This document shows, one piece after another, positions 7,898 to 41,400 of a DNA stretch of 41,851 nt. The translations under genes were made by a program, and so were the position numbers. A model generated the notes under the pieces. It did not search any database, was not told the origin of the DNA, and saw nothing but the letters and a program-made list of their open reading frames with translations. Position 1 is the stretch's first letter; each line of letters starts with the position of its first letter. The stretch comes from Candidatus Melainabacteria bacterium (GTDB lineage: Bacteria > Cyanobacteriota > Vampirovibrionia > Obscuribacterales > Obscuribacteraceae), in NCBI GenBank assembly GCA_020854255.1, contig JADZFV010000173.1:1-41851 (forward strand). The letters run 5' to 3'.

Positions 7898-8216
7898 CTG
7901 TCCAACCTCAAAACCAAAAATTAAGTCCACTTGACGGCCGGAAATTCCCTCCCGGCGCCATGGAAGAAAAAAGAGTACACCTTTTCGCTTATGTATGCAT
8001 TTAATGGCGTCCGTCGATATACGACCACCCAAGGACTGGCGACGCCATGCGTCGGTCTTGCAGATCAATCATCGAAGTGTTGGCCCTCATGTTTTTGTCA
8101 TGGACCAAACTCGTATGCTGACAATAGAAAGCCAGGTGAGAACACGAGGTTCTTGCCTAACTCGTGAGCGAGAAAAGCCCGAAAAACGACCGCACTAATT
8201 TGGAAACGAGACTATC
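7898..8216. other. Divergent intergenic region zwf / FAD oxidase
   Basis: 319 bases between the divergent zwf and FAD oxidase genes. It holds one copy of the dispersed palindrome (8038-8056) and a GC-rich imperfect hairpin close to zwf in which GCCGG and CCGGC flank a short spacer near 7937-7960. I looked for -35/-10 pairs in both directions and found none I would defend. I saw no RNA gene or credible small ORF. Confidence 0.5.
8038..8056 (+). repeat. Dispersed 19-bp palindrome, copy A
   Basis: Matches the consensus GGCGACGCCATGCGTCGCC at 17 of 19 positions; the last two bases differ. The arms CGACGC and GCGTCG pair around a CAT loop. It lies between the divergent zwf and FAD oxidase genes. 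Confidence 0.7.
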
Positions 8217-9707
8217 ATGCAACCATTTGCTTCAAGAAAAACACAAACACTTGCATCGAGCACTCTAAAAATTGTCAGGCAAACAATGCAGGAGGGCGCC
8301 CGAACAATCGCCAATGATGTTCACTCGAAACTCAATTCCACAAACCACAGAGAAATCATCCAGGTAAAATCCGGACAGCATGTGCAAGCACTGCTCAGCC
8401 AGTACAAAGATTACTCATTCAGTATTGCCGGCGGACGGCACTCGATGGGCGGGCAGCAATTTCTTACAAACGGCATTTTGTTGGATACGAGCCAATTTAA
8501 CAGAATTGTCGATTTCGACCAGGATTCAGGACTTCTTACGGTACAGTCCGGAATGCTCTGGGGAGATTTAGTAGACGCATTGGGCAAGCTCAATCAACAA
8601 TACAAATGCCACTGGTCGATCATTCAGAAACCTACCGGCGCAGATGATATCAGTATTGGCGGATCGCTGGCAGCGAATATTCACGGCAGGGTACTGGGAA
8701 GAAAACCCTTCATCGCCGACATCGAACGCTTCACTGCGATCATGGCCGACGGCACCAGATCGATAATTTCTCGAGAATCGAATGCGGAGCTGTTTACACT
8801 GACCGTGGGTGGATACGGCTTGTTTTGCTTTGTCGAGGAGATCACCATTCGCCTAACAAAAAGTACGCCTCTCGTGCGAAAAGTAGAATTGTCCGTCAGC
8901 GAGAATCTCATCGAAAGATTTTCTCAATTGCAGAAGGAAGGCGCCACGTACGGCGATTTTCAGTTCTGCATTGACAGCGGCGCCGACACTTTTCTAACCA
9001 TTGGAATTTTGTCTGTATATTTTCCGATCACAGTCAACCAAGACCAGGCGCACACTATATGTAATACCAGTAATCTAAAACTCAGCGAAGAAAGTTGGCG
9101 TGAATTGCTGCGCCTGGCTCACATCGACAAACAGAAAGCATTCACTACTTACAGCGATCACTATAAGCGCACAAACGGACAGATTTACGCTTCCGACACT
9201 TTTCAGTTGAGCCAATACGTTCCTGATTATCATGACTGGCTGGAAGACACCTGCCAGTCAAGCAATGCAAAAGGGTCCGAGATGATAACCGAGCTCTATA
9301 TTCCAAAACACAAACTGCATGAGTTTTTAGAAACTTCAAAAGCAGCGCTGAAAAGCCAATCGGCCGACGTCATTTACGGCACAGTGCGCCTGATTGAAAA
9401 AGACGAAGAGAGTTTTCTTGCCTGGGCCAGAGAAGAATACGCCTGTGTGATTTTCAATTTGCATGTCGATCACAATCAAGTTTCCCTCCTGCGCTCCAAA
9501 CATTCATTCCGAACACTTATCGATATCGCCCTGTCCATGGGCGGATCATATTACCTGACCTATCATCACTACGCTTCCAGAAAGCAGCTCATTCAAGCAT
9601 ATCCACAGTTCAAGAGCTTCGTAGACAAGAAGATTCATTACGATCCACAAGGAAGGTTCAGAAGCAATTGGTTCAAGCGCCTTTGCCTCTCGCTTGAGGC
9701 CGCATGA
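8217..9707 (+). CDS. FAD-linked oxidase (PCMH/VAO-type flavoprotein)
   Basis: A 496-residue flavoprotein of the FAD_binding_4 family. The FAD domain begins near residue 45, with FSIAGGRHSMGGQQF at about 68-82. The histidine in RHS sits where many VAO-family members attach FAD covalently. KPTGADDISIGGSLAANIHGR near 137-158 is the second flavin-binding stretch. The C-terminus has the usual oxidase ending, with YLTYHHYASRKQL, a YPQFKSFVDKK segment and a final DPQGRFRSNW. The overall pattern resembles aldonolactone oxidases and DprE1-type dehydrogenases, but the substrate cannot be read from the sequence. No signal peptide is seen. It stands alone on the plus strand between zwf (divergent) and a two-component pair. 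Confidence 0.8.
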   Translation: MQPFASRKTQTLASSTLKIVRQTMQEGARTIANDVHSKLNSTNHREIIQVKSGQHVQALLSQYKDYSFSIAGGRHSMGGQQFLTNGILLDTSQFNRIVDFDQDSGLLTVQSGMLWGDLVDALGKLNQQYKCHWSIIQKPTGADDISIGGSLAANIHGRVLGRKPFIADIERFTAIMADGTRSIISRESNAELFTLTVGGYGLFCFVEEITIRLTKSTPLVRKVELSVSENLIERFSQLQKEGATYGDFQFCIDSGADTFLTIGILSVYFPITVNQDQAHTICNTSNLKLSEESWRELLRLAHIDKQKAFTTYSDHYKRTNGQIYASDTFQLSQYVPDYHDWLEDTCQSSNAKGSEMITELYIPKHKLHEFLETSKAALKSQSADVIYGTVRLIEKDEESFLAWAREEYACVIFNLHVDHNQVSLLRSKHSFRTLIDIALSMGGSYYLTYHHYASRKQLIQAYPQFKSFVDKKIHYDPQGRFRSNWFKRLCLSLEAA

Positions 9708-9799
9708 GAGCCGATCTTCATGCGACCTGATCGAGTTGCCTGCGCTCTCAGGGCGCTTTAAACAAGCAGCCTGGTATTGACACTTTCAGTGCAACCTTT

Positions 9800-9826
9800 C
9801 GTAAGTCTCGCGGCGCAAGACTTACG
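9800..9826. promoter_or_regulatory. Inverted repeat in the response-regulator leader
   Basis: CGTAAGTCT (9800-9808) and AGACTTACG (9818-9826) are perfect 9-base arms separated by 9 bases. A second dyad, AATTGG (9837-9842) and CCAATT (9851-9856), follows at once. Both lie roughly 70-130 bases upstream of the predicted start point of the regulator/kinase operon. They could be binding sites for the operon's own regulator or another factor. There is no T-run, so a terminator for the preceding gene is less likely. Confidence 0.45.
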
Positions 9827-9894
9827 GACGCGCGTTAATTGGGAATACTGCCAATTTAAAGTCCAGGAATCGCTTTCGTCAAACTTTCTCTCCC

Positions 9895-9923
9895 CTTACA
9901 GAGTGACGGTCTTTTGCTATCAT
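9895..9923 (+). promoter_or_regulatory. Predicted promoter of the two-component operon
   Basis: CTTACA (9895-9900) and TATCAT (9918-9923) are spaced by 17 bases. The -10 box is preceded by TGC, giving an extended -10. Transcription would begin near 9930, about 40 bases before the ATG at 9969. Confidence 0.45.
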
Positions 9924-9968
9924 CAGACAGTGCTCTATCCAATTAGGTTTCGAGGTGAGGAGTTTGCC

Positions 9969-10637
9969 ATGAGACTACTTCTGGTCGAAGACGATTCCTT
10001 TTTATCCGAGGGCGTTGCACTTGCTTTGCGGCACAGCGGTTATGTAGTTGATCAGGTTCAATCAGGAACGGATGCAGATCAAGTTTTAACCGTGACGCCC
10101 TATGACCTGGTCATCCTCGACCTGGGTCTGCCGCAATTGGATGGAATTGAGGTTCTAAAACGCCTGCGGTCACGGGGTCAAGCCACGCCTGTGCTGATTC
10201 TTACCGCTCGAGACACCGTCCAAGACCGGGTCACCGGACTGGACAGTGGAGCAAATGACTATATCAGCAAGCCTTTTGAGCTTTTGGAGCTGGAGGCCCG
10301 CATCAGAGCCCTTCTCAGGAAGGAGCAATGGGGCAATATGACCAAAATCGTTGTCGGGGGGCTGGAGTTCGACACAGTCGAGCGACGCGCCACGATAAAC
10401 GGCGACAACCTGGACCTTTCCGCCCGCGAGCTGGCGGTGCTCGAGCAACTATTGAAGAGCGTCGGCAAAGTCGTCAACAAAGTACAATTAATTCGTAACC
10501 TCTCATCCTGGGATGCCGAGTTGTCGCACAACGCCCTGGAAATTATTATGCATCGCTTGCGCAAAAAGCTCGAAAAGACAGGCATCAATGTGCGTACAGT
10601 GCGCGGACTGGGATATATGCTCGAGAAACATGCATGA
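9969..10637 (+). CDS. OmpR-family response regulator
   Basis: A 222-residue DNA-binding response regulator. The receiver domain shows the acidic pair D8-D9, phosphoacceptor D51 in VILDLGLPQLDG, T79 and K101 in DYISKPF. The winged-helix output domain spans about 125-222 and ends with HRLRKKLEKTG and the RTVRGLGYML signature. The frame is open upstream to 9777, but ATG 9969 starts exactly at the canonical MRLLLVEDD and is preceded at 6 bases by a strong purine-rich site (GAGGTGAGGAG), so the longer form is rejected. Its stop overlaps the start of the sensor kinase (ATGA). The TctD/QseB-like subgroup is likely given the kinase's sensor type. Confidence 0.93.
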   Translation: MRLLLVEDDSFLSEGVALALRHSGYVVDQVQSGTDADQVLTVTPYDLVILDLGLPQLDGIEVLKRLRSRGQATPVLILTARDTVQDRVTGLDSGANDYISKPFELLELEARIRALLRKEQWGNMTKIVVGGLEFDTVERRATINGDNLDLSARELAVLEQLLKSVGKVVNKVQLIRNLSSWDAELSHNALEIIMHRLRKKLEKTGINVRTVRGLGYMLEKHA

Positions 10638-12061
10638 CCTCGTCCATCCGGAAGCAGCTTCTGGTGTGGCTTTTGATTCCACTGTCCACAATAGCTGTTT
10701 CCAGTACGTTCATTGCTTATAACGCCGCGATTCTTTTGGCGCGAGAGATTTATGACAAAGGACTGCTCAACTCAGCAGACTCGGTAATTGCTCGAGTGCG
10801 CCACAAACGCGGAAAAGTTCTTGTAGACTTGCCGCCCGCTGCTCAGTCTATTTTAAAACACAACTATCGCGACACGTTCTTTTACCAGATTTACACGATG
10901 GACGGCAAACGCATCGCCGGTGATGGCACGCTGCCCTTCGATCGCGGTGCGGTGGACTTCAGCCAGCCCCACTATTCAACACGGATGTTGAACGGCAAAG
11001 AAGTGCGCGTTTTGACTATGCTCTTTCCTGTCGCCAGTCATTTTGCCGATGAAAGTCCCGACGAGGATGACGACAATGATCAAAAGCCGGAAACGCTCAT
11101 TCTCGAGGTCGCCGAAACCCGCAACGCGCGCCGGGAAATCGTCACTCACATTGTCGTATCGGTGCTTTTGCCGCAGTTGATCTTGATCGTATGTGGTGGC
11201 GTTGCCGTTTGGTTCGGCATCAAGCAAGGTTTGTTTCCGCTGCAGCAATTGAGCAAGGTTCTCTCTTCCCGCTCTCCCACGGACCTCAGCCCCGTCACTG
11301 AAAGCAGCGCCCCCATTGAGGTTCGGCCTCTGGTTGAAGCAATCAATGGGCTGCTTAGAATGCTTAATGATGAAATTGAAAAAGAAAGACGATTTGTGGC
11401 CAATGCCGCGCATCAATTGCGCACACCACTGGCAGGTCTTAAAACATACGCCGATCTGGCTCTAAAAATGAATGAAGACCCTTCAGTGCATTCAGTTTTG
11501 GAGCAACTGCACACGGGCATCAATAGAATGTCCAACCTGATTGTTCGTCTCCTGACCCTGGCACGCGCAGAGCCGGGGGTGGCTGCGCAAGCAGCCAAGC
11601 AATCAACAGACCTCAGTGCCATCGTCTCCAGCGTAACTGAAGACCTGGTGCCGCTTTCCATTGAGAAGAAAGTAGATCTCGGCTTCGAATCACCGGCAGA
11701 ATCGATCATTATCGACGGAGATCCGGTCGGACTGAGAGAGCTGGTTACAAATATCATTGAAAACGCGGTCATCTACACTCAGGAGGGCGGTAGAGTAACA
11801 GTCAGGCTCTCCAAAATGCGCTCCCCGACTCTCTCGGTCGAAGACAACGGTCCTGGCATCCCCGAGAGAGAAAGAGATCTTGTCTTCGAGCGTTTTTATC
11901 GAATTCTCAGAGACGGCGCCTCAGGAAGCGGTCTGGGATTGTCCATCGTCAAAGAAATCGCCAATTCGCACGGCGCTAAAGTAGAAGTGAGTGATGGTGT
12001 GGGCGGCATCGGCACGTGCTTCACAGTCATCTTTCCGGAGACGGCAAACGGCAGAAGATAG
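10634..12061 (+). CDS. Sensor histidine kinase
   Basis: A 475-residue membrane kinase, partner of the preceding regulator (4-base overlap). A first membrane segment is at about residues 10-33 and a second near 171-192. The periplasmic part between them resembles the 2CSK_N sensor domain of TctE/QseC-type kinases and includes a very acidic stretch (SPDEDDDND near 141-149), which could bind cations. A HAMP-like region follows, then the HisKA box FVANAAHQLRTPLAG with phosphoacceptor H260. The ATPase domain shows the N box NIIENAVIYT, G1 DNGPGIPERE and G2 GSGLGLSIVKEI. The ligand is unknown. A substrate such as organic acids or metal ions is inference from related families. Confidence 0.92.
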   Translation: MTSSIRKQLLVWLLIPLSTIAVSSTFIAYNAAILLAREIYDKGLLNSADSVIARVRHKRGKVLVDLPPAAQSILKHNYRDTFFYQIYTMDGKRIAGDGTLPFDRGAVDFSQPHYSTRMLNGKEVRVLTMLFPVASHFADESPDEDDDNDQKPETLILEVAETRNARREIVTHIVVSVLLPQLILIVCGGVAVWFGIKQGLFPLQQLSKVLSSRSPTDLSPVTESSAPIEVRPLVEAINGLLRMLNDEIEKERRFVANAAHQLRTPLAGLKTYADLALKMNEDPSVHSVLEQLHTGINRMSNLIVRLLTLARAEPGVAAQAAKQSTDLSAIVSSVTEDLVPLSIEKKVDLGFESPAESIIIDGDPVGLRELVTNIIENAVIYTQEGGRVTVRLSKMRSPTLSVEDNGPGIPERERDLVFERFYRILRDGASGSGLGLSIVKEIANSHGAKVEVSDGVGGIGTCFTVIFPETANGRR

Positions 12062-12162
12062 ATTCTTTTTCCAGCGGATGAATGGTTGTCAGGCGCGCCC
12101 GTGGTTTCGTGCATAGAATAGGACGCAACCAAGCATTTGCCAAGGACAAACTATCGTCTACT

Positions 12163-12687
12163 TCAGTCCGGCATGGCGTCGTCGAATTGCACGTTGACGA
12201 TCCGCAGCCCGCGCCCATCAAGAAAGTCCATGATGTCTCTGACTTGCTCTCCCATCGGCCATAAAGGCACTTCCATCTGCGCATATGGCGTATGCAAAAT
12301 CATCGATGACGAGTCGCGATATGGATAATATTCGACGTACTTGACGTCATCGAGAAGCACCATTTGCGTTGAAGTGCGCTTCTTGAGCCGATCGTGCACA
12401 TAAAGAACGGCATCTGCATCGGTGAGCTCAAAAACAAAGCTTCGATAAGCATCTTGCACCATCGAATAGGTCATGAAGCTGAGAAAGAGCGAAAAACCGA
12501 ATGTGGAAGCCAAAAGTGTCAGACCCCAATAGATATTGTTCAATAGAGCCAATATGCCGGTGCATAGCCAGAGAAGGGCAAAAACCCAGCCCACGACCAC
12601 TCCGACTATAAGCGGAGCCAGAGCCGTCCTTGTCGAGTACGGCTTGGATACAAGTTTTATCGCTATTTGAGGCTTGGCGGTGACCAT
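12163..12687 (-). CDS. Two-helix membrane protein of unknown function
   Basis: A 174-residue protein I do not recognise. Two hydrophobic segments at roughly residues 22-50 and 53-78 form a hairpin in the inner membrane. The C-terminal 95 residues are soluble and probably beta-rich, beginning FVFELTDADAVLYVHDRLKK; a PH-like fold is possible but unproven. A 32-base palindrome lies just upstream of the start and may regulate this gene or end the preceding one. It is last of a same-strand set after the CPBP protease and converges with the sensor kinase gene. Its final codons include a partial resemblance to the dispersed repeat, which I treat as chance. Confidence 0.6.
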   Translation of the reverse strand: MVTAKPQIAIKLVSKPYSTRTALAPLIVGVVVGWVFALLWLCTGILALLNNIYWGLTLLASTFGFSLFLSFMTYSMVQDAYRSFVFELTDADAVLYVHDRLKKRTSTQMVLLDDVKYVEYYPYRDSSSMILHTPYAQMEVPLWPMGEQVRDIMDFLDGRGLRIVNVQFDDAMPD

Positions 12688-12704
12688 GGTCGCGCTCGAT
12701 TTTC

Positions 12705-12736
12705 TGGAAGTTAAACCGTTAACGGTCTAACTTCCA
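12705..12736. promoter_or_regulatory. 32-base near-perfect palindrome
   Basis: The arms TGGAAGTTA and TAACTTCCA flank ACCGTTAACGGT, so all 16 base pairs match except A12714/C12727. There is no unpaired loop, which fits a protein-binding operator better than a terminator, and no T-run follows on either strand. It lies 18 bases upstream of the two-helix membrane protein gene and 45 bases beyond the stop of the CPBP protease gene. Confidence 0.6.
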
Positions 12737-12781
12737 TATGCCCATAAATGCCTGTGAAATAGTCGGCAAAACCCAACTGGC

Positions 12782-14311
12782 TCAAGGCGAGAAGAGCAGC
12801 AATACCATGGTAAAAGTGCCGCTATTCCATAAACCGTGCGCGATCATGCACGGCAAAATGCTGCGCGTGCGCTCAAGGGTAAAGGCAAAGAGCATGCCCA
12901 GGGTCATGAGAGGAAGAAAGCCACCGGCATCGAGGTGAATTCCTGCAAAAAGCCCGGCGGACAGCAGCATCGAAGGCAGGATGCCCCAGTAGCGACGCAA
13001 CGCTGTATAGAGAAAACCTCGAAAGAGGATCTCTTCACAAATAGGCGCCAGAATGCCAAGCGTTGCATAAAATATCAAGGTAGCGGCGATATTGTTGGTG
13101 CGCGCCGCATGCATCACAATTGAAATAATAGGATTGTTTGAACCCGTGGAGCCAAGGTATTTTGCGGCAATCAGATAGGCGACGACCACGCAGGGTATAG
13201 CAGCAAGCCAGGTAAGGACTCCGTAGACAATCAGCCGAAAAGGACCATTTCGATCGACTTTGAAACGCAGACGAATGCCATCAAGAAATTTGATGGCACG
13301 CGGCTTCAGGGCCAGAAAATAAACCCAGAGTACGCCCGGACCATTGGTGATCAAATACAGCAAAAACGTGGCCGTGCCAGCCACAATTGCCCCTTGCTGG
13401 AGTAAATGAACATCTTTCAGGGCCGTCTGCACGATCACGCCTACTGCCTGCTGAGTAGCCAGCCAACCAATGAAGACCGCATAGATTGTAAGAAGGCCGT
13501 ACTTTTGCGGAGAAGCCACTTGCTCACGATGCTCCGGAGCAGTGACGCGGCGAGGCAGAATGAACAGTGTCGCCAGAATCACAATGAGACCGCCCAGGAA
13601 GGCAAATATGACAAAACCCGCTAGCATTAAGGATCGTGCCACAAAACGCATGTTGGACTGATCAAAATCTTCTGTAACCTGCTTGAGAGCTTCGTTCTGT
13701 TTGGTGACTCGATACAGCCTCATCAATGAAACCGACTTGTACCATCCACTACACTCGGTTTCGATCTTCTTTGCCAGCGCCTTGAGTTTTTCTGAGTCCA
13801 GCGCTTTTGCATTGTCATAGAGATCGTCAAGCATTTGACTGAGCTCTTTGGACTTCTCCGTGTTCAGCTTTGCCAAACGCTCTCTGTAGGTTTTTGTGGG
13901 ATGACCGATCTCATGAGCGATTATAATTACACGCATGAGAGCCTTGGGCTCCGCCGGAGAGGCAAAAGCGGGCTTCTTGAGCAGCTCTTCTGCCTGCACA
14001 AGCATGGATTCGCGCTGCTTGTTGACCACGTCGATGGGCTGACCGGAAGTCAGCATGCTGGCGTTGCGTTGAAAAGTATTGATTGCCGACTCGAACTTCA
14101 GCAGTAGATCAGCATTATTGCTACTTGAGAGCCCGCCTTTCGCGCTCTTTGCCGGACTGTGAGACGATCCCCAGAGTCCCTGGAATACAAATGCCGTAGC
14201 GTAAATGAGCAAGGCCCCTGTACAGGCTCGCTTGAACTTTTTTTTAGTAAAAAGGCTGCCGCCGATAAGCAATACGAATCCGTACAGCCAGAGAAAATTC
14301 GGATCCGCCAA
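12782..14311 (-). CDS. CPBP intramembrane metalloprotease
   Basis: A 509-residue polytopic membrane protein of the CPBP (CAAX protease/bacteriocin-processing, Abi) family. The family's three motifs are present in the C-terminal half: EEILFRGFLY near 425-434 (Glu-Glu-x3-Arg), GIHLD near 457 and MIAHGLWNSGTF near 490. The N-terminal half has a first membrane helix, a long soluble helical region (about 60-220) and further helices from about 225. This extension is longer than in small CPBP proteins. The start appears to be TTG 14311, preceded at 6 bases by GGGAGG. The ATG five bases upstream is in another frame. The substrate is unknown. Confidence 0.85.
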   Translation of the reverse strand: MADPNFLWLYGFVLLIGGSLFTKKKFKRACTGALLIYATAFVFQGLWGSSHSPAKSAKGGLSSSNNADLLLKFESAINTFQRNASMLTSGQPIDVVNKQRESMLVQAEELLKKPAFASPAEPKALMRVIIIAHEIGHPTKTYRERLAKLNTEKSKELSQMLDDLYDNAKALDSEKLKALAKKIETECSGWYKSVSLMRLYRVTKQNEALKQVTEDFDQSNMRFVARSLMLAGFVIFAFLGGLIVILATLFILPRRVTAPEHREQVASPQKYGLLTIYAVFIGWLATQQAVGVIVQTALKDVHLLQQGAIVAGTATFLLYLITNGPGVLWVYFLALKPRAIKFLDGIRLRFKVDRNGPFRLIVYGVLTWLAAIPCVVVAYLIAAKYLGSTGSNNPIISIVMHAARTNNIAATLIFYATLGILAPICEEILFRGFLYTALRRYWGILPSMLLSAGLFAGIHLDAGGFLPLMTLGMLFAFTLERTRSILPCMIAHGLWNSGTFTMVLLLFSP

Positions 14312-14376
14312 GGCATCCCTCCCTGTCAGCTAATTTTATTACCTTTCAGGCAAAAGAGGAGGTTGGGTTGTGAAGT

Positions 14377-14706
14377 CTATTCGCCCATGGAGCCGCCGCC
14401 GCCGTCGCCGCCAAAGAAGGTCTGACCGTATTCGCCCAATTCACCGAATCCGCTGAATTCGCCGAAATCGCCAGCCCCTTCGAAGCCACCGAATTCCAGC
14501 CCGGTGTCGTGCAGGAAGTCGTTGGTGTCTTTGTCATTGAACATGTAGGGGTCCGACTGAGGAATCTGGTCGGCATAATAACCCCACGGAAAGCCTTTTT
14601 GCAGCTTGCGTTTGAGCAACCAGCGAGGCATCCGAGCAAAGCCCAGCCCCATAGCCACGGTGACTATGAACAAGACTTCAAAGACCAGTATGTTGCCCCA
14701 CTGCAT
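14377..14706 (-). CDS. Small membrane protein with Gly/Phe-rich tail
   Basis: A 109-residue protein I do not recognise. One hydrophobic helix lies at about residues 5-24, followed by a basic patch (RMPRWLLKRKLQ) that predicts a cytoplasmic positive side. The C-terminal 40 residues are low-complexity, rich in Gly, Phe, Glu and Asp, and end with a run of Gly-Gly-Asp-Gly type. The tail lacks order-promoting residues and is probably flexible or exposed. It lies 65 bases upstream of the CPBP protease gene on the same strand, so it could be a substrate or partner of that protease; this is conjecture from position. No strong ribosome-binding site precedes ATG 14706. Confidence 0.5.
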   Translation of the reverse strand: MQWGNILVFEVLFIVTVAMGLGFARMPRWLLKRKLQKGFPWGYYADQIPQSDPYMFNDKDTNDFLHDTGLEFGGFEGAGDFGEFSGFGELGEYGQTFFGGDGGGGSMGE

Positions 14707-14920
14707 TGTTTATGCCGTTTTTGGACCTTTTCTGTGCGACCTTTTCAAATTCGAAGGACAGAAAGCCCGTATGGGCCTTTTGCGCCGAGCTTAAGATCGA
14801 CACCTAGAATTCTGAAGCGGACCGCCGCGGAAGTCAACAGACTCAGTGGGGAAAATACTATGCGATTTAACGTCGAGAAAATAGAGTAAAAATAAGGGGT
14901 CAGACTGGACCTGGCCTTAA

Positions 14921-15127
14921 TTACTCAGTTTCGGTAAGTAAAGCAATCTTTTGGGACCCGACGGAGCTTATCGACATGCGCGGCCCTTGAGTGCGCTTGA
15001 ACCCGTCAATGTAGCGCCTGAGAGCCTCCCTGATTAAATCGGAGCGAGTGCGGTGCTCGACTTGAGCAACGCTGTCAATCTGCTCCAGCAATCCGGGAGG
15101 AAGCGCCACAAGTACTTTCTTTGGCAT
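14921..15127 (-). CDS. Ribbon-helix-helix (CopG-like) DNA-binding protein
   Basis: A 68-residue protein with the RHH_1 pattern: a beta strand KVLVALPP at residues 4-11, helix 1 LLEQIDSVAQVE, the turn RTRSDL, and helix 2 IREALRRYIDGF. Such proteins bind DNA as dimers, as antitoxins or as repressors. The C-terminal 20 residues (after GPRMSI) are of unknown role. A good ribosome-binding site (AAGGA, 6 bases before ATG 15127) supports the start. No toxin-sized partner such as RelE, ParE or PIN is adjacent on either side, so it looks like an orphan regulator rather than half of a toxin-antitoxin pair. Confidence 0.75.
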   Translation of the reverse strand: MPKKVLVALPPGLLEQIDSVAQVEHRTRSDLIREALRRYIDGFKRTQGPRMSISSVGSQKIALLTETE

Positions 15128-15510
15128 GCCAGATCCTTCTTAAATATCTGAGTGGGGTAGAAAAAGTTACGAAACCACGAACGCAAAATAGACGTACGCA
15201 AGGACCACCGTCTATGCTAGTTTGCGAGGTGGGTTCCATCGATAAATGTACGCTACTCACTCTCGTTTTGGAATGCCTCAAACGTCACATTTTCAATAGA
15301 GCTGTAGGAATTTAGTTAAAAGCTTTCTTGGAATGGCGAAAACCGGGTCACATCAAGAACTGCATATCATGCGGGTTTGCAGCGGGCCTCAGAAAATTCA
15401 TCTCTTCAGGCAAAGCCGGTCCGGAGAAAAGGAAAAAACACGCCAGCACACCCACTGTAAGATATCCAGTATTCATGCGGGTTCTTTGCGGCAACCATGA
15501 TGCAGACAAA
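15128..15510. other. Intergenic region upstream of selD
   Basis: 383 bases between the divergent RHH gene and selD. The selD frame stays open back to a TTG at 15328, but the sequence there does not resemble SelD. A weak promoter-like pair (TTGGAA at 15268, TTCAAT at 15292) is present. I looked for a selenocysteine tRNA and for a structured riboswitch-like element and could not identify either. Confidence 0.4.
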
Positions 15511-17264: not shown

Positions 17265-17285
17265 ACTTTTTAATTCAAGAAAGTC
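17264..17285. terminator. Weak hairpin between convergent yedF and small membrane gene
   Basis: GACTTT (17264-17269) pairs with AAAGTC (17280-17285), extended by one wobble and one A-T pair, with a 6-base loop. It sits between the yedF stop and the convergent small gene ending at 17301. It is A-T rich and has no T-run, so termination here is only a possibility. Confidence 0.25.
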
Positions 17286-17300
17286 CAGCTCAGAAAAGGT

Positions 17301-17438: not shown

Positions 17439-17567
17439 AAGGTCACCTGAGGCGCATAGGAGAACATAAGCTGAGAATATGAACCGAAAATATGAATATT
17501 CTAGTCTAACCTTACATTTCGGAAAAATATAGCCCAAAACACCATGATTTCATGTAAAAACGGCTGC

Positions 17568-26610: not shown

Positions 26611-26632
26611 GACCGCATGTCCTTTTGAACCT

Positions 26633-26651
26633 GGCAACGCATGGCGTCGCC
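26633..26651 (-). repeat. Dispersed 19-bp palindrome, copy B
   Basis: Read on the minus strand it matches the consensus GGCGACGCCATGCGTCGCC at 18 of 19 positions. It lies inside the lpxD-lpxC gap, 22 bases upstream of the lpxC start, and would form a hairpin in the shared mRNA. Confidence 0.7.
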
Positions 26652-26694
26652 CCTTAAACTTGCTATATCTTTTTATCTGTGTCTGTTTATTTCT

Positions 26695-31833: not shown

Positions 31834-31880
31834 CACTATCACTTTTTTGTTTCGCGGCGAGTGAAACCATTGCCTGTTTG

Positions 31881-32432: not shown

Positions 32433-32513
32433 TTGACCTATGTTCCGACAATCAGTTGTGTTCTTCAGCCTGTACATTGATCTAAACGGTTAGCCAGCCG
32501 GTTTTAGGAGGAG

Positions 32514-32681
32514 ATGCAAGCCAAAATGCAACTGATACCACAAATGATGCCCCAGTTTTCTGCAGGAGCGAAAGTTGGCATCGAACGGCCTGTTTTGCAG
32601 GCAGATGCCATAAATCGCCCTGCAATTATTCAGACCACGCTTAAATTGAAAACGCGCTTATACAGGAACTCCAAGATCTAA
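32514..32681 (+). CDS. Candidate 55-residue small ORF
   Basis: ATG 32514 follows AGGAGGAG at only 0-3 bases, tighter than usual. The reading frame gives 55 residues beginning MQAKMQLIPQMMPQF and ending LYRNSKI. It is basic and has no membrane segment. It is the only plus-strand candidate in a minus-strand island. A frame this long can occur by chance in a 400-base gap, and I recognise no family. Confidence 0.22.
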   Translation: MQAKMQLIPQMMPQFSAGAKVGIERPVLQADAINRPAIIQTTLKLKTRLYRNSKI

Positions 32682-32722
32682 TGCGCCACCCCCGACGAAT
32701 CGGAAGTGGTCACATTAGCGCC

Positions 32723-32775
32723 GTTAAAACTTGCTTTGGAACTGTTGAACTTGTTTTAGGCGTTGAACTTGTTTT
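32723..32775. repeat. Imperfect short tandem repeats
   Basis: GTTGAACTTGTTTT occurs exactly at 32744-32757 and 32762-32775. A weaker copy (GTTAAAACTTGCTTT) begins at 32723. Spacing is 21 then 18 bases. The array ends about 30 bases before repeat copy C. Confidence 0.55.
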
Positions 32776-32803
32776 GGAAACTATTGACCTCCTTTTTTTA
32801 ACG

Positions 32804-32822
32804 GGCGACGCATGGCGTCGCC
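32804..32822 (-). repeat. Dispersed 19-bp palindrome, copy C (perfect)
   Basis: A 19 of 19 match to GGCGACGCCATGCGTCGCC on the minus strand, with 8-bp perfect arms around a 3-base loop. It lies 11 bases past the stop of the TadE-like gene. The minus strand continues with CGTTAAAAAAAGG, an A-run rather than a T-run, so it does not look like a standard terminator for that gene. Confidence 0.8.
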
Positions 32823-32833
32823 TCTGCAATTGA

Positions 32834-33334
32834 CTATGGATTTTTGTTGGGAACCACATAGGTAATCGGTAATGTGTGTTTGCAGTTGAGTGCGACACCA
32901 ATCGGTCCGATTACAGCGCCGGCAAGAAAAGGAGGGTAAATATCGATTGTCGTTTTAATCGATACTTCTCCGTCAATTGCTCCACCGGCATCTGTGGGAA
33001 TGTCGCGCACGCTTTCCACTGCTTCGATTTTTTCGCGAACCTTCATAGGCAGTCTGGTTGAGTAAATCTTCTTCACGACGGTCAAGGCTCTGTCATAAGG
33101 CGATGCGCCGGCGCTGACATTGCGGTTTTCGCCGATCGAAAGATCGCTCGGAGGTCCAGAGGCTGCTGCCCTGGCTGCATCTCTGCATGCCTGGTCGTTG
33201 AGACCGGCGCCGATAGCGATCATGCCGAGGTCCATAACCAGTAATACCGCAGGAACCAGACAGACGAGAACACCGACGACTTCGACAAGTCCCTGTCCAT
33301 TTTTGGTTTTTCGGGCAGGTGAAAAAGTGACCAT
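32834..33334 (-). CDS. TadE-like minor pilin
   Basis: A 166-residue protein with a short basic N-terminus (SPARKTKNGQGLVEVV) and a membrane helix GVLVCLVPAVLLVMDLGMIAIG, the TadE arrangement with Glu just before the helix. The mature part opens with ACRDAARAAASG, typical of pseudopilin-like stalks, and ends with a beta-rich region with TLPITYVVPNKNP. ATG 33334 (or GTG three bases earlier) follows GGAG at about 9 bases and is preferred to TTG 33358. It is the first pilin gene after the secreted unknown protein (77 bases). Confidence 0.65.
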   Translation of the reverse strand: MVTFSPARKTKNGQGLVEVVGVLVCLVPAVLLVMDLGMIAIGAGLNDQACRDAARAAASGPPSDLSIGENRNVSAGASPYDRALTVVKKIYSTRLPMKVREKIEAVESVRDIPTDAGGAIDGEVSIKTTIDIYPPFLAGAVIGPIGVALNCKHTLPITYVVPNKNP

Positions 33335-33411
33335 CACGTTGCTCTCCATCTCGTACAAGGGGTTAACGGCAGCCGGGCAACAATTAGGGGGAATCCTGAA
33401 TTATTCCGGTC

Positions 33412-34029: not shown

Positions 34030-34224
34030 TGGCTGAATACTCCTTTAGATCCCCTCCGGCTCCATCTCTGTCCGGTGATTCTTCTACACATAGATAGCGG
34101 CTTTTAGGAGTATTTCCGCAATTTTCGTGCAGCATAGCAGGCACTTATTTACTGGGGCGACTTTTAGTGAACTGCAGGGGAGATGCCATGGATCTCCCTG
34201 TTTTAGCCACCTCATTGGAAGACG

Positions 34225-34243
34225 GACGACGCCATGCGTCGCC
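34225..34243 (+). repeat. Dispersed 19-bp palindrome, copy D
   Basis: Matches GGCGACGCCATGCGTCGCC at 18 of 19 positions on the plus strand. It is in the 298-base gap between the subtilisin gene and the secreted unknown gene, just beyond the protease terminator. Confidence 0.7.
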
Positions 34244-34257
34244 ACACAAACAAATTT

Positions 34258-34285
34258 AAGACCAGACTCGTTGGAGCCTGGTCTT
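34258..34285 (-). terminator. Factor-independent terminator of the S8 protease gene
   Basis: AAGACCAG (34258-34265) pairs with CTGGTCTT (34278-34285), continued by three more pairs after one A-C mismatch, with a GTTG loop. In the protease's direction the stem is followed by AAATTTGTTTG, a T-rich tail. It starts 43 bases after the protease stop. Confidence 0.65.
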
Positions 34286-34327
34286 TGTGCCTCGAGGAAA
34301 TCTCCAGGTTTTGCCTTTCTCAGATGA

Positions 34328-35704
34328 CTACGGCGTCATTTGCAAGGCCTTTTGCGCATCGGGCATTCCCCAGCCGTAGTAGGCATTCCAGCCAGGTGAG
34401 GAGTTGGTGCAGCTTGCCTTGAGGATTTGCTCAACCACGAAGTTGGGCAGTCCTGGATTTTTGCTGAGGATGAGGGCTGCGACACCGGCTACGATTGGGC
34501 TTGAGAACGAGGTTCCTTTCACGATTGACTCTTTGCCGTCGATGCCCATGCAATGGATTTCTTCGCCCGGGGCCGTGAAATCGATGATTGGACCATAATT
34601 CGAGAAATCGGTAAGAGCGCCGGTTTTATTGATAGCCGAGATCATGTTGATGTATGGAAGATTCGGTGTTCCGTCAAATACTGAATCGTTACCGGCGGAC
34701 AAGAAGAGAAGGCCCTGGCGAACATAATAGAATTCCGAGAACATCTTATGGAGCGGTGCGTGCAGGCTGGCGTTATGGAAACCTACGTAAGGAGCACCAT
34801 AACTGAGGTTGACGATTCTGGCGCCGGAGGTAAACACTTTGGACATCGCGCATGCTACTGAAAAGTCGGTAGCCATTGCACTGCCGCCCGGTGCAGCATC
34901 AGCAACTCTAATAGGATAGATTGTCGACGAAGGTGCGATACCTGCCGAGGTGTTTACGTTGTTCATCTTGGCGCAGATACATGAGGCAACCCAGGTACCG
35001 TGTCCGTGCTGGTCGTGCTTGGCGCCTGACGATGCTTCCGCCGCTACTGCACCGGCGAGATCGGTCACACCAGGCAAGGTGCCGGTGGCCAGCAAGAGCG
35101 CGCCAAGGATTTGGGCAGCGGCTGTATTGGCATCAAAACCTTTTTCGATCTTGCCACTGAGATCTGGTCCATTCGATTCACAACCAGTATCCAGAACTGC
35201 GACTTTGGCTCCGCCTGTACCGTGATCCCAGGCCTTGGGGCAATTCATAGCGCTCAGGTGCCACGATTCGCCGAAATCTTCATCGTTGGGCGCAAACTGT
35301 GCTTTGAAGCGATAATTGCGCCCAACGGCGCTAAAGTGTTTTTTGTCCTTCGCAAGTTTTGCTTCGGTCTCTTCAAGTTTGCCCTTTTCGGTCTTGATAA
35401 GGATCATTTGCATGTTGCCTGCTTTTACGGTTTGGGTAGCAGAAGCATGAACAGATTCCAAAGTTTCTTTGATCTCGTCCTTGTCAGCTTTTGCATCGGC
35501 TACTACGAGCAAGACGTCCGGCTGGTAGTCATAAACAGGTGCGATTCGACGAGTGTAAGGTCTATTCAGCGGATTTTTCAATTTCATGTCAGCACTGAAT
35601 GCCGGAATTTGAGCGACCGATGAAATGCCAATCGCGAGAGTCATCGCCATCGCAAAGAATTTCTTTCTTTCTTTTGAAACCTTAATGACCAGTCCGGAAA
35701 TCAT
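34328..35704 (-). CDS. Secreted subtilisin-like serine protease (S8)
   Basis: A 458-residue exported protease. From ATG 35704 (AAAGGAG at 8 bases) there is a long signal peptide with SKERKKFFAMAMTLAIGISS and cleavage near AFSA. A propeptide-like region spans about 40-150. The catalytic domain holds D172 in VAVLDTGC, H235 in HGHGTWVA, oxyanion N339 in LSAGND and S399 in GTSFSSPIVAG, so the triad is complete. About 45 residues rich in Ala, Gly and Leu (near 195-230) separate the Asp and His motifs and are unusual, perhaps a loop. The open frame to 35773 is rejected because it would precede the signal peptide. It stands alone, with its own terminator. Confidence 0.9.
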   Translation of the reverse strand: MISGLVIKVSKERKKFFAMAMTLAIGISSVAQIPAFSADMKLKNPLNRPYTRRIAPVYDYQPDVLLVVADAKADKDEIKETLESVHASATQTVKAGNMQMILIKTEKGKLEETEAKLAKDKKHFSAVGRNYRFKAQFAPNDEDFGESWHLSAMNCPKAWDHGTGGAKVAVLDTGCESNGPDLSGKIEKGFDANTAAAQILGALLLATGTLPGVTDLAGAVAAEASSGAKHDQHGHGTWVASCICAKMNNVNTSAGIAPSSTIYPIRVADAAPGGSAMATDFSVACAMSKVFTSGARIVNLSYGAPYVGFHNASLHAPLHKMFSEFYYVRQGLLFLSAGNDSVFDGTPNLPYINMISAINKTGALTDFSNYGPIIDFTAPGEEIHCMGIDGKESIVKGTSFSSPIVAGVAALILSKNPGLPNFVVEQILKASCTNSSPGWNAYYGWGMPDAQKALQMTP

Positions 35705-35764
35705 TTGTCGTACTCCTTTGTGCAACTTAATTGAGATACCATTGAATAACTTACCAAGAGCTTT

Positions 35765-35794
35765 TGAGCGCACTTACCCTGTCCTTTGCGCTCA
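35765..35794. promoter_or_regulatory. Inverted repeat upstream of the S8 protease gene
   Basis: TGAGCGC (35765-35771) and GCGCTCA (35788-35794) are perfect 7-base arms separated by 16 bases, 61-90 bases upstream of the protease start. The spacing of the half sites is about two helical turns, as for a dimeric regulator. No promoter was identified with confidence. Confidence 0.35.
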
Positions 35795-35859
35795 CATTGG
35801 TCTCAACAGCAAACAAGATCGAATTAGGCGGAGCACTCAAAAACATCCCGAAAACAAGG

Positions 35860-35883
35860 AGGAGCACCAGTTGTGGTGCTCCT
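35860..35883 (-). terminator. Hairpin terminator downstream of the aldehyde dehydrogenase
   Basis: AGGAGCACCA (35860-35869) and TGGTGCTCCT (35874-35883) form a perfect 10-bp stem with a GTTG loop. On the minus strand it is followed by CCTTGTTTTC. It is 80 bases past the dehydrogenase stop. On the plus strand TTTTTT follows at about 10 bases, but no plus-strand gene precedes it. Confidence 0.6.
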
Positions 35884-35931
35884 GCCAATTACATTTTTTG
35901 ATGCGATATTTCTAATCGGCTTAGATATAGC

Positions 35932-35956
35932 AAGGGCGACGCCGGGCGTCACCCTT
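35932..35956 (-). repeat. Variant of the dispersed palindrome, copy F
   Basis: The central 19 bases (35935-35953) match the consensus at 16 positions in either orientation; the CAT loop is replaced by CGG. The arms extend to AAGGG/CCCTT, giving 11 pairs with one mismatch. It lies 7 bases past the aldehyde dehydrogenase stop. Confidence 0.55.
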
Positions 35957-35963
35957 AAAGCGT

Positions 35964-37469
35964 CTATTTCTTCTCGAACCAACCTACAGGTTGCGGATCC
36001 AGATTGATATTGATCTGTTTGACTTCAGTGTAGGTTTCCAGTCCGAACGTTCCCAGTTCGCGGCCCCATCCACTTTGTTTATAACCGCCCCATGGGCATT
36101 CGTTATATGTGTTGTGGTAGGCGTTCACCCAGGTGATACCGGCCTTCAGCGCTTTTACAACGCGGTGTGCTCTGGTTACATCATTGCTGAAGACTGCGCC
36201 TGCCAGACCGAAGTCTGAATCATTTGCATACTTGATTGCTTCTTCTTCAGTTTTGAACTTTTGCACGACAACGACCGGTCCGAAAATTTCTTCTTGAACA
36301 ATACGCATGTCCTGTTTGACATTGGTGAATACGGTTGGATTGACATAATAGCCTTTGCCGTACTTGTCGCCTTTTGGCTGGTCGCCGCCGGTTTCAAGCT
36401 TGGCGCCTTCTTTGCGCCCGATTTCGACGTATTCAAGGACGCGCTTCAATTGCACTTCGTTGACCAGGGGTCCCATTTCTGTTTCGGGGTCCATTCCAGG
36501 GCCTACCTTTATATGTTTGGCGCGCTCGACAAACTTCTTGACGAATTTGTCGTACATCGGCTCTTCAATCAACAGGCGCGAACCAGCTGAGCAAACCTGA
36601 CCGGCATTGCAGTAAATCGCGAAAAGCGCGTAATCGACAGCAGTATCGACGTCGAAATCGGAGAATACAACCATCGGCGATTTACCGCCCAATTCCAATG
36701 TCACCTTTTTGAGATTGCCGAGCGCGGCGCCTGCAACGGCTTTACCGGTTTTAACGCTGCCTGTGAAAGCAACTTTGTCGACCAACTTGCTTTCGGCAAG
36801 CGTGTTTCCGACTGTCTGTCCATCGCCCAAAACAATATTGACGACGCCTTCCGGCAATTCCAGTTCTTGCAAGATTTCAGCCAATCTTACGGCTGTAAGC
36901 GGTGTGTATTCGCTCGGCTTCAAGATGCAGCAATTGCCTGCAGCAAGAGCCGGAGCCAATTTCCAGGCACCCATCAATAACGGGTAATTCCACGGAATGA
37001 TTTGAGCGCAAACACCGATCGGCTCACGAACTACTGTCGTTACCGACGGGGCCGGGACATCAATTGCTTGCCCGGTCGGTTTGGTGACCAGACCCGCATA
37101 ATAGCGGAAGCAATTGGCTGCATCGCCCATGTCGTATTTGGCTTCGCGCAGAGGCTTGCCGCCGTTCAATGTTTCGAGTTCAGCCAATTCTTCGGCGTGC
37201 TCATCAATCTTATCCGCCAGCTTAAAGAGAAACTGTGCACGCTCCATCGCCGTCATTCTCGGCCACGGGCCTTCATCAAAAGCCTTGCGCGCTGCCTTAA
37301 TCGCCGCTTCGCTTTGCTTCTTGTCGGCTTCAGCCACTTTGCACAGAGGCTTTGCATCGGCCGGATTGATCAAAGTGCGCTCAGTGGCGCCATCTTGAAA
37401 CTTACCGCCAATCCACAATTGCCACTTGCGATCTACTTTCACTTTGGGTGCCACTAGGGTTTGAGTCAT
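35964..37469 (-). CDS. NAD(P)-dependent aldehyde dehydrogenase (betaine-aldehyde type)
   Basis: A 501-residue class 1/2-like aldehyde dehydrogenase. All catalytic residues are present: N161 in PWNYPLLM, K184 in KPSEYTP, E259 in LELGGKSP and nucleophile C293 in NAGQVCSAGSR. The C-terminus PWGGYKQSGWGRELG and ETYTEVKQI fits the betaine, phenylacetaldehyde and aliphatic aldehyde branch. The specific substrate is not fixed by sequence; betaine aldehyde is a reasonable guess, without a choline oxidase gene nearby to support it. It stands alone, divergent from tmk, and is followed by repeat variant F and a hairpin terminator. A TGTTATGAT extended -10-like element at 37631-37639 might serve it. Confidence 0.93.
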   Translation of the reverse strand: MTQTLVAPKVKVDRKWQLWIGGKFQDGATERTLINPADAKPLCKVAEADKKQSEAAIKAARKAFDEGPWPRMTAMERAQFLFKLADKIDEHAEELAELETLNGGKPLREAKYDMGDAANCFRYYAGLVTKPTGQAIDVPAPSVTTVVREPIGVCAQIIPWNYPLLMGAWKLAPALAAGNCCILKPSEYTPLTAVRLAEILQELELPEGVVNIVLGDGQTVGNTLAESKLVDKVAFTGSVKTGKAVAGAALGNLKKVTLELGGKSPMVVFSDFDVDTAVDYALFAIYCNAGQVCSAGSRLLIEEPMYDKFVKKFVERAKHIKVGPGMDPETEMGPLVNEVQLKRVLEYVEIGRKEGAKLETGGDQPKGDKYGKGYYVNPTVFTNVKQDMRIVQEEIFGPVVVVQKFKTEEEAIKYANDSDFGLAGAVFSNDVTRAHRVVKALKAGITWVNAYHNTYNECPWGGYKQSGWGRELGTFGLETYTEVKQININLDPQPVGWFEKK

Positions 37470-37742
37470 CGCCCGCTGAACCTCTTTTGTTTAGTTTGTT
37501 CTTTGTTCCAGGTTTTCTTGCCGAAATTCGCACGCTACATTCGAATCATGGCCCTGCATGCTTGAAACCTCCTGCGACCACTGCAAAGGAGTGACAAGGA
37601 AAGAATTACGCGGATTCCGAAAGTTGGAAGATCATAACATTCTTGCCGGTTTATTTCGACTGCAATGGCGGCTAGTCGCCGCCCTTTGAGGCTGTTTTGA
37701 CTCTGAGATAAACGCTCACTCCTGTAATGGCAGGCGCGCTTA

Positions 37743-38438
37743 ATGTATTCTTTTTGCTCCTCACCATTTTTGCGCTATCTCATGGCAACCAGTTACCCCG
37801 GCAGTTTTATCACCCTTGAAGGTCCTGAGGGCGCAGGCAAGACGACTCAGCTGAAGCTACTCTCTCGGCAACTTGACCAGATCGGCTGCAAGCACATTGT
37901 CACAAGAGACCCGGGCGGGACGTCTTTGGGCAAGCAAATCCGCCGTATATTGCTCAACCCGGAAAACCCTGTCATGCCAATGACCGAGCTTCTGCTCTAT
38001 CAGGCCGACCGGGCCCAGCATGTCGAAGAGCTTATTCTCCCGGCATTGAAAAGCGGCACTTTAGTGCTATGCGACCGTTATGTAGATTCGACCCGGGCTT
38101 ATCAGGGCTATGCCCGTGGCATTGACCTTGACCTGATCAACACGCTTTCAAACATGGCAACAGGCGGGCTTACTCCGGAATTGACGATTCTTTTCGACAT
38201 CGACAGCGCAGATGGTCTCGGGCGTTTGCATCCGGGCGGGCATGACCGCCTGGAGCGCGAAGCCATCGAGTTCCACCACAAAGTGCGCGATGGTTACCAC
38301 GAACTTGCAGCACAAGAGCCGGAGAGATGGGTAATCATTGACGCCAAAAAGCCGCTCACAGTCGTGCAAGAAGACTTGCGCAGGATTCTGGTGGAGCGCG
38401 TCGGTGAAAAACACAAGCTCGCCGCACTAATAGAATAA
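37743..38438 (+). CDS. tmk: Thymidylate kinase
   Basis: A 231-residue (or 218 from ATG 37782) kinase converting dTMP to dTDP. The P-loop GPEGAGKTT is at residues 27-35, the DRYVDSTRAYQGYARG motif follows near 112, and the LID-type segment GHDRLERE near 167. Family length is about 205-215, so the internal ATG, which begins MATSYPGSFITLEGPEG, is the likelier start, although neither has a strong ribosome-binding site. The gene opens a plus-strand pair with the large lipoprotein gene, which begins 16 bases after its stop. A 6-bp GC hairpin (37667-37683) lies upstream. Confidence 0.93.
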   Translation: MYSFCSSPFLRYLMATSYPGSFITLEGPEGAGKTTQLKLLSRQLDQIGCKHIVTRDPGGTSLGKQIRRILLNPENPVMPMTELLLYQADRAQHVEELILPALKSGTLVLCDRYVDSTRAYQGYARGIDLDLINTLSNMATGGLTPELTILFDIDSADGLGRLHPGGHDRLEREAIEFHHKVRDGYHELAAQEPERWVIIDAKKPLTVVQEDLRRILVERVGEKHKLAALIE

Positions 38439-38454
38439 ATTAGGGCGGTGAAAA

Positions 38455-41400
38455 GTGATCTTCGCTCACGTACCGCAGGGAAAAACCTCTTGTCTCTGCG
38501 ACGCCATGCGTCGCCTGTCGACTGAAGCCTCAGGCGAACGGACTGCTTCGGTATTTGGAAGCCCCGGTAATTTGGCAACGCGATTGATCGCTGCCACAGT
38601 TGCCGCAATGTTTTTGCTCACGTCTTGCAGTGCCAACAAACAAGTTCGCTTCAGTTCTCTTTTTAAAGAAGATGACGAACTGACCGCAGACATCGCCTTC
38701 AAGATTATTGAGAAGTCCTATCGAGTCAAACCGGACAGAAGATACTTGCTGGCTTTGTCCGACATTTCATTTATAGTCACCGGCAAGCCCCTGCAAAAAG
38801 TCGAAGCGGTTTTTGCTGATGGAAAGTGGCGCATCCAGTCGGATAAAAAGAATGTGACGGAGATCAACAACTTTGCGACCTTTCAAGACATGCACAATTC
38901 GCTCAGTAAGTATGCGCACTCGCTCGAAGGCAATCAGGGTCAAAACCGTTTTTCATCCAACGGGAAAACAGTCTTGAACATGGCGAAGATTTACGGTCAT
39001 TTCGAAACGCAGACACAATTAATTTACGGAGAACACAACAAAACATCAAAGCAACAGGACAAGCAAGATACATCGCCTGTTCCGGATGCACCACAGCCAC
39101 CTGACTTACCTCAACACGCTAATACACCCGAAAAAACCAAACCAGGCGCTGCACCAACTAAATCGCAGCCGACTCACGCATCTGAGGCATCTCTTTCAAC
39201 TCAGCCACCTGACACATCTGATTCGCCGGGCATTACAGAGCAAGTTGAAGACACTCAGCCTATGGCACCTGACCCGATCGATAATTTGCTTTTGGATTTC
39301 AGTCCACGATCTTTGTTTAAAGCGATCGAAATGCTGAATGCCCGGTGGAAACAGTCCGGCGGATCTCAGCAATCCATAGATCAGGCAGCCACCGCACTGA
39401 CTGGGCTGTCGTTTCAAGTCGCCGACCTAGCAGGTACCGCTGATAATCTGTTATCGAAAGCGCTCGCATTTACAGTTCTGTCGAAAAGATATGAAACAGT
39501 AAATGCAAGAAGAAATTTTGTTCGTATTGCAGAGGCGATGGGATATCACCAAGAAGCAGTGGCGCTGGCGAGAGACATTGATGAAGAAGATCCGCTGCGC
39601 ATGTACATGTTGTGGCAATCAGGAACTGTTCTGGCAGCAATTAAACAGGGTCTGGATTCTCCCGAGGCGAGATTTCTGTATGTAAAAAAACTTGCACAGG
39701 CTGAAATGCTCAATCAAGATGATAAATATCGCCCTGGAGAGGCTTTGCTTTTGCCGGTGTCCGGCTTCATGCAGGAAGCGTTTGCAACAGAGCCGTGGAA
39801 TGTTGACTATACCTCTTTGCCGATGGCCTTGTTCGACGAGCTGGAAGATCCAAAACCGAAGGGTTTGAAAACGGATTCAAACAAAAGAAAAGAACCTTTT
39901 TTTACTCGTCTAAACGAATGTTTTGAGAAGTTTCCCAAGTGGTCTGAAGGATCTTTGATTCCGCAAGATTTGAAGATCGCTTTTTATCAGGCATTTGCAT
40001 ACACTTATGTGCTCCATAATCTGCAGCCTGAAAATGGATCTCGCACCGAGATAAAAGCCGAAAAAATCTTTGACGATAATTTTGGAACTCCCCAGAAGTC
40101 CGAATCAGGTAATTCAATCTGTACGTTAGCTCACGATATTCTCAATTCGCGCACCGGACACTATCAAGTCGCCAAGCTTCTTGGTGATGCAGTTTCTGCC
40201 GGAGATCTCGGAGACTATCCGCGCTTTCTAGCTTACTCGGAAGCATCACGCTGGTTTCAAAATGGAGACCCAAAACTGATCTCGGCAGCCAAAACGATGT
40301 TCGACAACATCGACAGCCGTCCAGAAAGTCGTTATCGAGCAGGCAAGATCGCCCACAATGAAATTCTGCATCCGGTTTTGGCATTACAACTGGACAATCT
40401 CGGTTTTGACGCTGACCCGGACAATGTACTTGCTGTTGATGCAGCGCAGCAGGACGTAAATTTTGAGCGCCTGAGAAAGATCGCAGATACGAGGACAAGA
40501 ACTCCATCGCACCGAGCAAGAGCTATGGCGGCACTCTGCGTGCTTGCGGGCAGCACCGATCGAGGCGCGAAAAACCTTTACGTCAGCCGTCTCGGCGACT
40601 TAGTGGCACAGACACCAGGAAATTTTGAGGTGCTGCGGCAATATGTGCAAACCGCGATTCTTGCGGGCAAAGTACCCCTGGCAATCGCAAACACGAAGAA
40701 ATGGATAGCTGCTCTAAAGGATGCTCAGCCTGTCGCTAAAGCTGCCAATCAGTTGCTTGCCACACTCTATTACAGTAATGGAAACACTCAAGAGTGCCTG
40801 GACCTCATCGATCGTCAGATTAACAATGATGTGCAGCGCAATATCGCAGAAATGTACGTGAATGTCTTGATTCAAAAAGGCAACATCGCCAAGGCAGAAG
40901 CATTCGCCGATACATTTTACGAAAGCAATCGCATAGCGCCATCTGCACTGGCACTGAAATTGCAAATGCTCTGGAAGAGAAAGGCATTTGAAGAGGCAGC
41001 GCTGCTTCTGAAAAAACACCCCTGGTGCATCAAAGTGGAAGACTGGCGTCGCGAAATCTACCCTGCTTTCAAACACACGCTTGCCGGTTTTCCGAACGAC
41101 AGCGCCACGGCTGTGCGAGCGCTGGCAAAAGAGGGCTTTGCTGATTCGACTGACATCGGCGAGCTGGCTCGCTCATTCTCATTTTATGGAAGAGACAATA
41201 CCGGATTTGAAGTCTTGAGCGCTGTGCTATCAAGTTCATTCAGCGGTCATGAATTGAATTACCTAAATCTATCCACACTCGCTTATTCGTTTTTGCAGAA
41301 ATCTGAAAATGAGAGAATCGCTCTTAAATGGATTCAGGAAAAAGTGCCACCACAGTTTTTCACACCACTAGCAATGTTCGCATTTCAAAATGGTGCCTAT

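Follow-up and report, generated by a model that had tools for sequence, protein, structure and literature searches.

The stretch of DNA analysed here, which we call the window, comprises 41,851 nucleotides of contig JADZFV010000173.1. This contig is part of a metagenome-assembled genome from Candidatus Obscuribacterales (Melainabacteria), G000 in our numbering of genomes, which totals 6.19 Mb in 674 contigs and is 90% complete. A first-pass annotation had drawn attention to a 19-bp palindrome with a constant loop at six sites in the window and had likened it to repetitive extragenic palindromic (REP) elements. All six sites were present with 0-3 mismatches, together with a diverged seventh at 34171-34202 that had been overlooked, and dinucleotide shuffles gave 0 copies. 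The window is dense in copies, with about 7 sites in 42 kb compared to roughly 1-1.6 expected.

Alignment of the flanks showed that the 19-mer belongs, as its stem-loop, to a longer unit with a length of about 32 nt, (Y)T-TGTAG-GGGCGACGC-CAT-GCGTCGCCC-GG(T/T). The stem is formed by 8-9 bp of perfect pairing and carries a 3-nt CAT loop, with an unpaired GTAG head on its 5' side that is preceded by T, and with CGG/TT after the stem. Exact GTAG abuts the stem in 36 of the 87 CAT-loop copies of G000 and GCAG in 9 more; the consensus is TGTAG. Some copies prolong the symmetrical stem. The CAT loop and the GC pairs beside it form an invariant core, and the arms change by compensated substitutions. 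Thus, the constant loop described in the first-pass annotation holds, but the unit is longer than 19 bp and its arms vary. Beyond about 32 nt the flanks showed no larger unit bounded by terminal repeats, and Rfam models at gathering thresholds gave no match in the window.

We derived a covariance model from 41 copies in G000 and scored the window copies with it. The first copy (8030-8061, plus strand, hairpin 8038-8056; 29.5 bits) lies between a glucose-6-phosphate dehydrogenase (G6PD) open reading frame (ORF) on the minus strand, with a predicted start at 7897, and a FAD-binding/ALO ORF on the plus strand (8217-9707); its head has decayed to GGACT for GTAGG. Two copies are on the minus strand. 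One (26628-26659, hairpin 26633-26651; 37.1 bits, head TTAAG) is located between an lpxC-like ORF and a hexapeptide/LpxD-like ORF, and the other (32799-32830, hairpin 32804-32822; 43.1 bits), a perfect 19-mer with the head TGCAG, follows the stop codon of ORF 32834-33349. The diverged REP-like hairpin at 34171-34202 on the plus strand, GGGAGATGCCATGGATCTCCC (21.7 bits, E 0.013), is 46 bp from a copy of identical orientation with a degenerate head (34217-34248, plus strand, hairpin 34225-34243; 30.2 bits). A loop variant without CAT (35927-35958, plus strand, hairpin 35935-35953; 30.9 bits on the plus and 25.7 bits on the minus strand) is directly 3' of an aldehyde dehydrogenase ORF (35964-37469, minus strand), and its sole non-matching stem pair is a G-T wobble on the minus strand. 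The last copy (38489-38520, plus strand, hairpin 38497-38515; 33.7 bits, head GTCTC) lies between ORF 37782-38438 and the start of ORF 38506-41817. According to the first-pass annotation all but one of its six sites were between genes. The hairpin at 8038 falls in a doubtful 5' extension of the G6PD ORF (TTG start at 8068) and that at 38497 falls at the doubtful start of ORF 38455/38506-41817. Because these overlapping starts are doubtful, all seven sites may be intergenic. The window copies look like old, decayed REPs.

Window sites in collinear relatives

Five relatives (G006, G004, G007, G002, and G003) align collinearly with the window over the stretches compared, G006 over almost the full length of the window. 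In these five genomes all seven sites are unoccupied, and 135 kb of their sequence contained a single copy, at a different place in G006. Thus, the window copies are lineage-specific, as the synteny comparison recommended in the first-pass annotation brought out. At 26633, 32804, 34171/34225, and 38497 the window has about 27-126 bp more between the genes than its relatives do. At 26633 the copy is absent from five relatives, and in four the gap is shorter by about 56-65 bp; at 32804 it is absent from five, with a gap about 58-96 bp shorter; and at 38497 it is absent from the aligned G002, G004, and G006, where the gap is also shorter. Because relatives are only about 75% identical to the window in DNA, these are not base-precise empty sites.

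The copy at 32804 separates the stop codon of ORF 32834-33349 from a conserved non-coding element that is close to the stop codon in relatives. This element, about 55 nt long (32678-32731) and downstream of the ORF, is kept in G002, G003, G004, G006, and G007, with local matches that are 92-96% identical compared to about 66-73% for the flanking genes. It can form an extended hairpin (TAATGCGCCAC...GTGGTCACATTA) and has no Rfam match.

Copy number, placement, and stem variation

Across G000, sequences with up to 3 mismatches to the 19-mer gave 118+120 = 238 strand matches, a perfect palindrome being countable on both strands, compared to 0+3 for a reversed control. With the head included there were 56+73 = 129 strand matches and 0 in the control. 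The covariance model returned at least 145 matches among 150 candidates scored, and a few of the matches count one site on both strands. Relatives contained 262 (G006), 320 (G004), 261 (G005), and 153 (G033) matches, and the range within the family was 0 to 320 per genome. No match with the head was found in 145 sampled genomes from other families of the phylum.

We examined placement using a simple codon-usage gene finder on 400 kb of G006, which were unselected, and on contigs of G000 that were partly picked for having matches. None of 23 copies in G006 was in a predicted gene, where 70% were expected, and 4 of 49 were in G000, where 78% were expected; several of these four are close to the end of a contig, where genes are predicted less reliably. 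Few copies were between divergent genes (0/23 in G006 and 3/49 in G000, compared to 26-28% of random intergenic points), and copies in G006 were enriched between convergent genes. The two grounds on which the first-pass annotation could have been dismissed, a genome-wide count without excess and a lack of intergenic enrichment, fail because excess and enrichment were both found.

This placement would also be expected if the repeats were transcription terminators or stabilizers of mRNA 3' ends that are alike by function rather than by spreading, and the extended symmetrical stems of some copies fit such a role. At the place of 35935, beside the stop codon of the aldehyde dehydrogenase, alignment showed unrelated hairpins in relatives, for which reason this hairpin may be terminator-like rather than a REP. 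However, a T-rich tail of at least 5 T in 8, as an intrinsic terminator would have after its hairpin, was rare among the 87 copies (8 on one side, 6 on the other), and copies in tandem intergenic regions occurred in both orientations, 25 along and 14 against the genes. Nor would function alone explain the fixed GTAG head and CAT loop or the absence of copies at orthologous gene ends in relatives. We consider this explanation improbable for the family, while the shaping of mRNA ends, as the first-pass annotation had put forward, is possible for individual copies.

The stems vary with compensation both within a genome and between species, and CAT and GTAG are constant. By species, the compensated alleles are GTCGACGC/GCGTCGAC in G006, GGCGGCGC/GCGCCGCC in G022, and GGCGATGC/GCATCGCC in G028, with T-A at pair 2, G-C at pair 5, and T-A at pair 6, respectively. 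In G000, pair 6 is C-G in 56 of 87 copies and T-A in 18 of 87. Among distinct sequences of G000 we counted 9 doubly compensated cells compared to a shuffle mean of 3.2 and a shuffle maximum of 9; G006 alone has too few variants for the test to show compensation. The test was based on extracted sequences and left out two 19-mers of unconfirmed origin, GGCAATGCCATGCATTGCC and GTCGACGCCATGCGTCGCC. When the GTAG strand is read, G-T wobbles outnumber A-C mismatches (36 compared to 18, two genomes pooled, the copies being related). This is modest evidence suggesting that folding takes place in the strand bearing GTAG.

In G006, more hairpins headed by GTAG share their ends with the repeat (TGTAGGGGCGG...CCGCCCG) and differ in inner stem and loop, such as GGGCGGCATTAATGCCGCCC and GGGCGGGATACATCCCGCCC, at L205:2912, L206:4613, and L202:9333 and 15353.

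Selection on position could also account for copies that are many and intergenic if the palindrome were the binding site of a chromosome-organizing or replication protein such as a nucleoid factor, a segregation protein, or gyrase. On contig C1 of G006 a stretch of about 1 Mb (0.71-1.74 Mb) that surrounds a switch in GC skew near 1.37 Mb is nearly free of copies, and orientation on C1 is uneven, with an excess on the plus strand. This excess does not flip at the skew switch, which led us to reject the idea that orientation follows the replication strand. Copies are plentiful in the orthologous window of G000 although its G006 counterpart lies inside the copy-poor stretch, and sites are not kept between close collinear relatives. 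In addition, the drift of the stem with compensation indicates that structure rather than duplex sequence is kept. A role as a protein-binding site is thus very unlikely, and the nucleoid factor suggested in the first-pass annotation found support in none of our tests.

Relation to known REPs and the mobilizing enzyme

The GTAG superfamily of REPs, described by Di Nocera et al. in 2013 with 24 families, is known from Cyanobacteria and other phyla, and an unpaired GTAG directly before the hairpin is its hallmark (PMC3733652). We place the repeat in this superfamily because it combines the unpaired GTAG head with a perfect 8-9 bp stem and a 3-nt loop. As in published families, which have similar stem length, loop size, G-T pairing, and placement between unidirectional or convergent genes (PMC3733652), it is a short palindrome (within 20-40 bp, with a stem within 6-13 bp) with GTAG, or the GYRG variant, at one end, in the consensus if only in degenerate form in the window copies. 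It has alternative complementary stem residues and G-T pairs, occurs singly, in pairs, and in clusters, and is present in high copy number between convergent or co-directional genes, with few copies between divergent ones. By contrast, its loop is CAT, whereas many published loops fit TY or CMA (PMC3733652), and the repeat was seen only in the sampled Obscuribacterales family, unlike the broader superfamily. It may coincide with one of the 24 published families. The architecture is nearest to that of group 3 REPs, judging from sequence: the group 3 REPtron of Stenotrophomonas maltophilia (REPSm with TnpA-REP) has GTAG and an 8-bp perfect palindrome with a 3-nt loop, and the bases of the REPSm loop matter, which fits the fixed CAT loop (PMC8266576). 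Unlike REPSm, our repeat has no cognate transposase located.

Taken together, the GTAG head, the short perfect stem with its fixed loop, more than 100 copies, the intergenic placement, and the lineage-specific sites support the first-pass annotation in calling this a REP-type element. The palindrome very probably belongs to the GTAG superfamily of REPs, as a distinct family of Candidatus Obscuribacterales, and would have been spread as single-stranded DNA by a REP-associated tyrosine transposase (RAYT) and filtered by selection to gene ends. By analogy with other REPs, the GTAG-bearing strand TTGTAGGGGCGACGCCATGCGTCGCCCGGTT would fold when single-stranded, and an HUH/Y1 transposase (RAYT/TnpA-REP) would recognize it through GTAG and the loop, cleave beside the hairpin, and copy the unit to new sites. 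Selection would then purge copies in genes or promoters and those at gene ends would stay, while old copies would decay, head included.

We found RAYT-like genes in G004, G006 (two), G028, and G033. Three of these belong to the five genomes that exceed 100 repeat matches, and the fourth is another family member. Their proteins are 45-55% identical to the G006 query and have the HUH motif; those of G006 and G004 are above the NF047646 cut-off, and the YIxxNPVK motif of the subfamily aligns with a motif of PDB 4er8. Next to aroA, both G004 and G006 have an intact RAYT gene and G002 has a remnant; G000 and G003 have none there.

Several other features of RAYT loci were observed. In G028 (L055:1453-2148), Cys replaces the Tyr aligned to position 115 of 4er8 TnpA-REP, presumed to be catalytic, and CIENNPVK stands for YIxxNPVK. 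Other RAYT-like genes (L057, L060, L063, L056) adjoin different GTAG- or GTGG-headed hairpins, for example TGTAGGGGCGGCTTTAGCCGCCCG (G010), GTGGGGGCGCGTTGCACGCGCCC (G002), GTAGGGGAGGGGCTTGTCCCCTCCC (G022), and GTAGGGGCGGCTCGAGAGCCGCCC (G024), and are likely to be separate REP-RAYT pairs. Among 80 RAYT-type loci from many phyla GTAGGGKC was not enriched (22 found compared to 65 expected from mononucleotide shuffles), and at L126, a lone case, GTAGGGGCGACGC-AT-GCGTCGCCCC is 0.9 kb from the RAYT gene.

The only Y1_Tnp match in G000 is partial and reads like the C-terminus of an IS200-type TnpA, and the copy-rich G005 encodes a full-length Y1_Tnp protein of 150 aa. Such genes would be expected if the repeats were the termini or remnants of an IS200/IS605 element, or of some other miniature inverted-repeat transposable element, rather than REPs with a RAYT of their own. 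However, the hairpins near those tnpA genes are unrelated to the repeat, and the lack of a wider unit with terminal repeats also argues against this origin, which we regard as barely plausible. Since the repeat does not border IS200/IS605 tnpA genes, we rejected it as an IS200/IS605 end hairpin.

Some observations weigh against a RAYT-spread REP family. At 35935 and 8038 there is no net gain in length over relatives, and exact GTAG is the head of 0 window copies. Inverted pairs of fixed spacing, typical of many REP systems, are a minority: the few found, 75-340 bp apart, resemble REPINs (REP doublets forming hairpins) or BIMEs (bacterial interspersed mosaic elements), but most copies are single or in direct-repeat arrays, with a period of 33-37 bp in G006, rather than in regularly spaced inverted pairs. 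Searches of the 90%-complete G000 with Pfam Y1_Tnp, NCBIfam NF047646, and proteins found no RAYT; a RAYT gene in the genome, usually near the repeats, is common but not universal in the superfamily. The relatives' proteins are related to NF047646 and 4er8, yet the flanks of all five RAYT-like genes are without the repeat, and we therefore rejected linking the repeat to RAYT subfamily A1 by adjacency. Finally, the RAYT-like gene of G033 (L054) is bordered, around 1427-1480 and 2196-2216, by inverted repeats with CGGACG/CGTCCG hairpins that differ in sequence from this repeat; in this it is like tyrosine transposases associated with terminal inverted repeats (TIRs), the 'TIRYT' genes of PMC3733652. 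Thus, that a REP-associated transposase moves the repeat, as the first-pass annotation had proposed, is something we infer by analogy, and the enzyme would be a RAYT encoded in the tenth of the genome that the assembly lacks, or one since lost. It is possible, though unlikely, that the family persists at more than 200 strand matches in some genomes with no resident RAYT flanking it. It would then have spread in trans, through an unlinked RAYT or through a TIR-flanked one that acts on a GTAG hairpin with which it is not associated, or would have been retained for a host function after RAYT loss, with the direct arrays and the copy-poor stretch around the terminus-like skew switch.

The repeat is real, ordinary in kind, and undescribed as a family. 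The statement of the first-pass annotation that no named family has this sequence holds for the exact sequence in the open papers searched, but its superfamily has had a name since 2013 (PMC3733652). Among the open-licence papers searched, none joins Obscuribacter with repetitive extragenic palindromic elements, and nothing relevant joins Melainabacteria with RAYT. The picture of how REPs work is unchanged. What the repeat adds is a well-characterized family that extends GTAG-type REPs to the Obscuribacterales (Melainabacteria), one genus in which stems drift by compensation while head and loop hold, and several collinear genomes that allow the gain of REPs and the loss of RAYTs to be traced.

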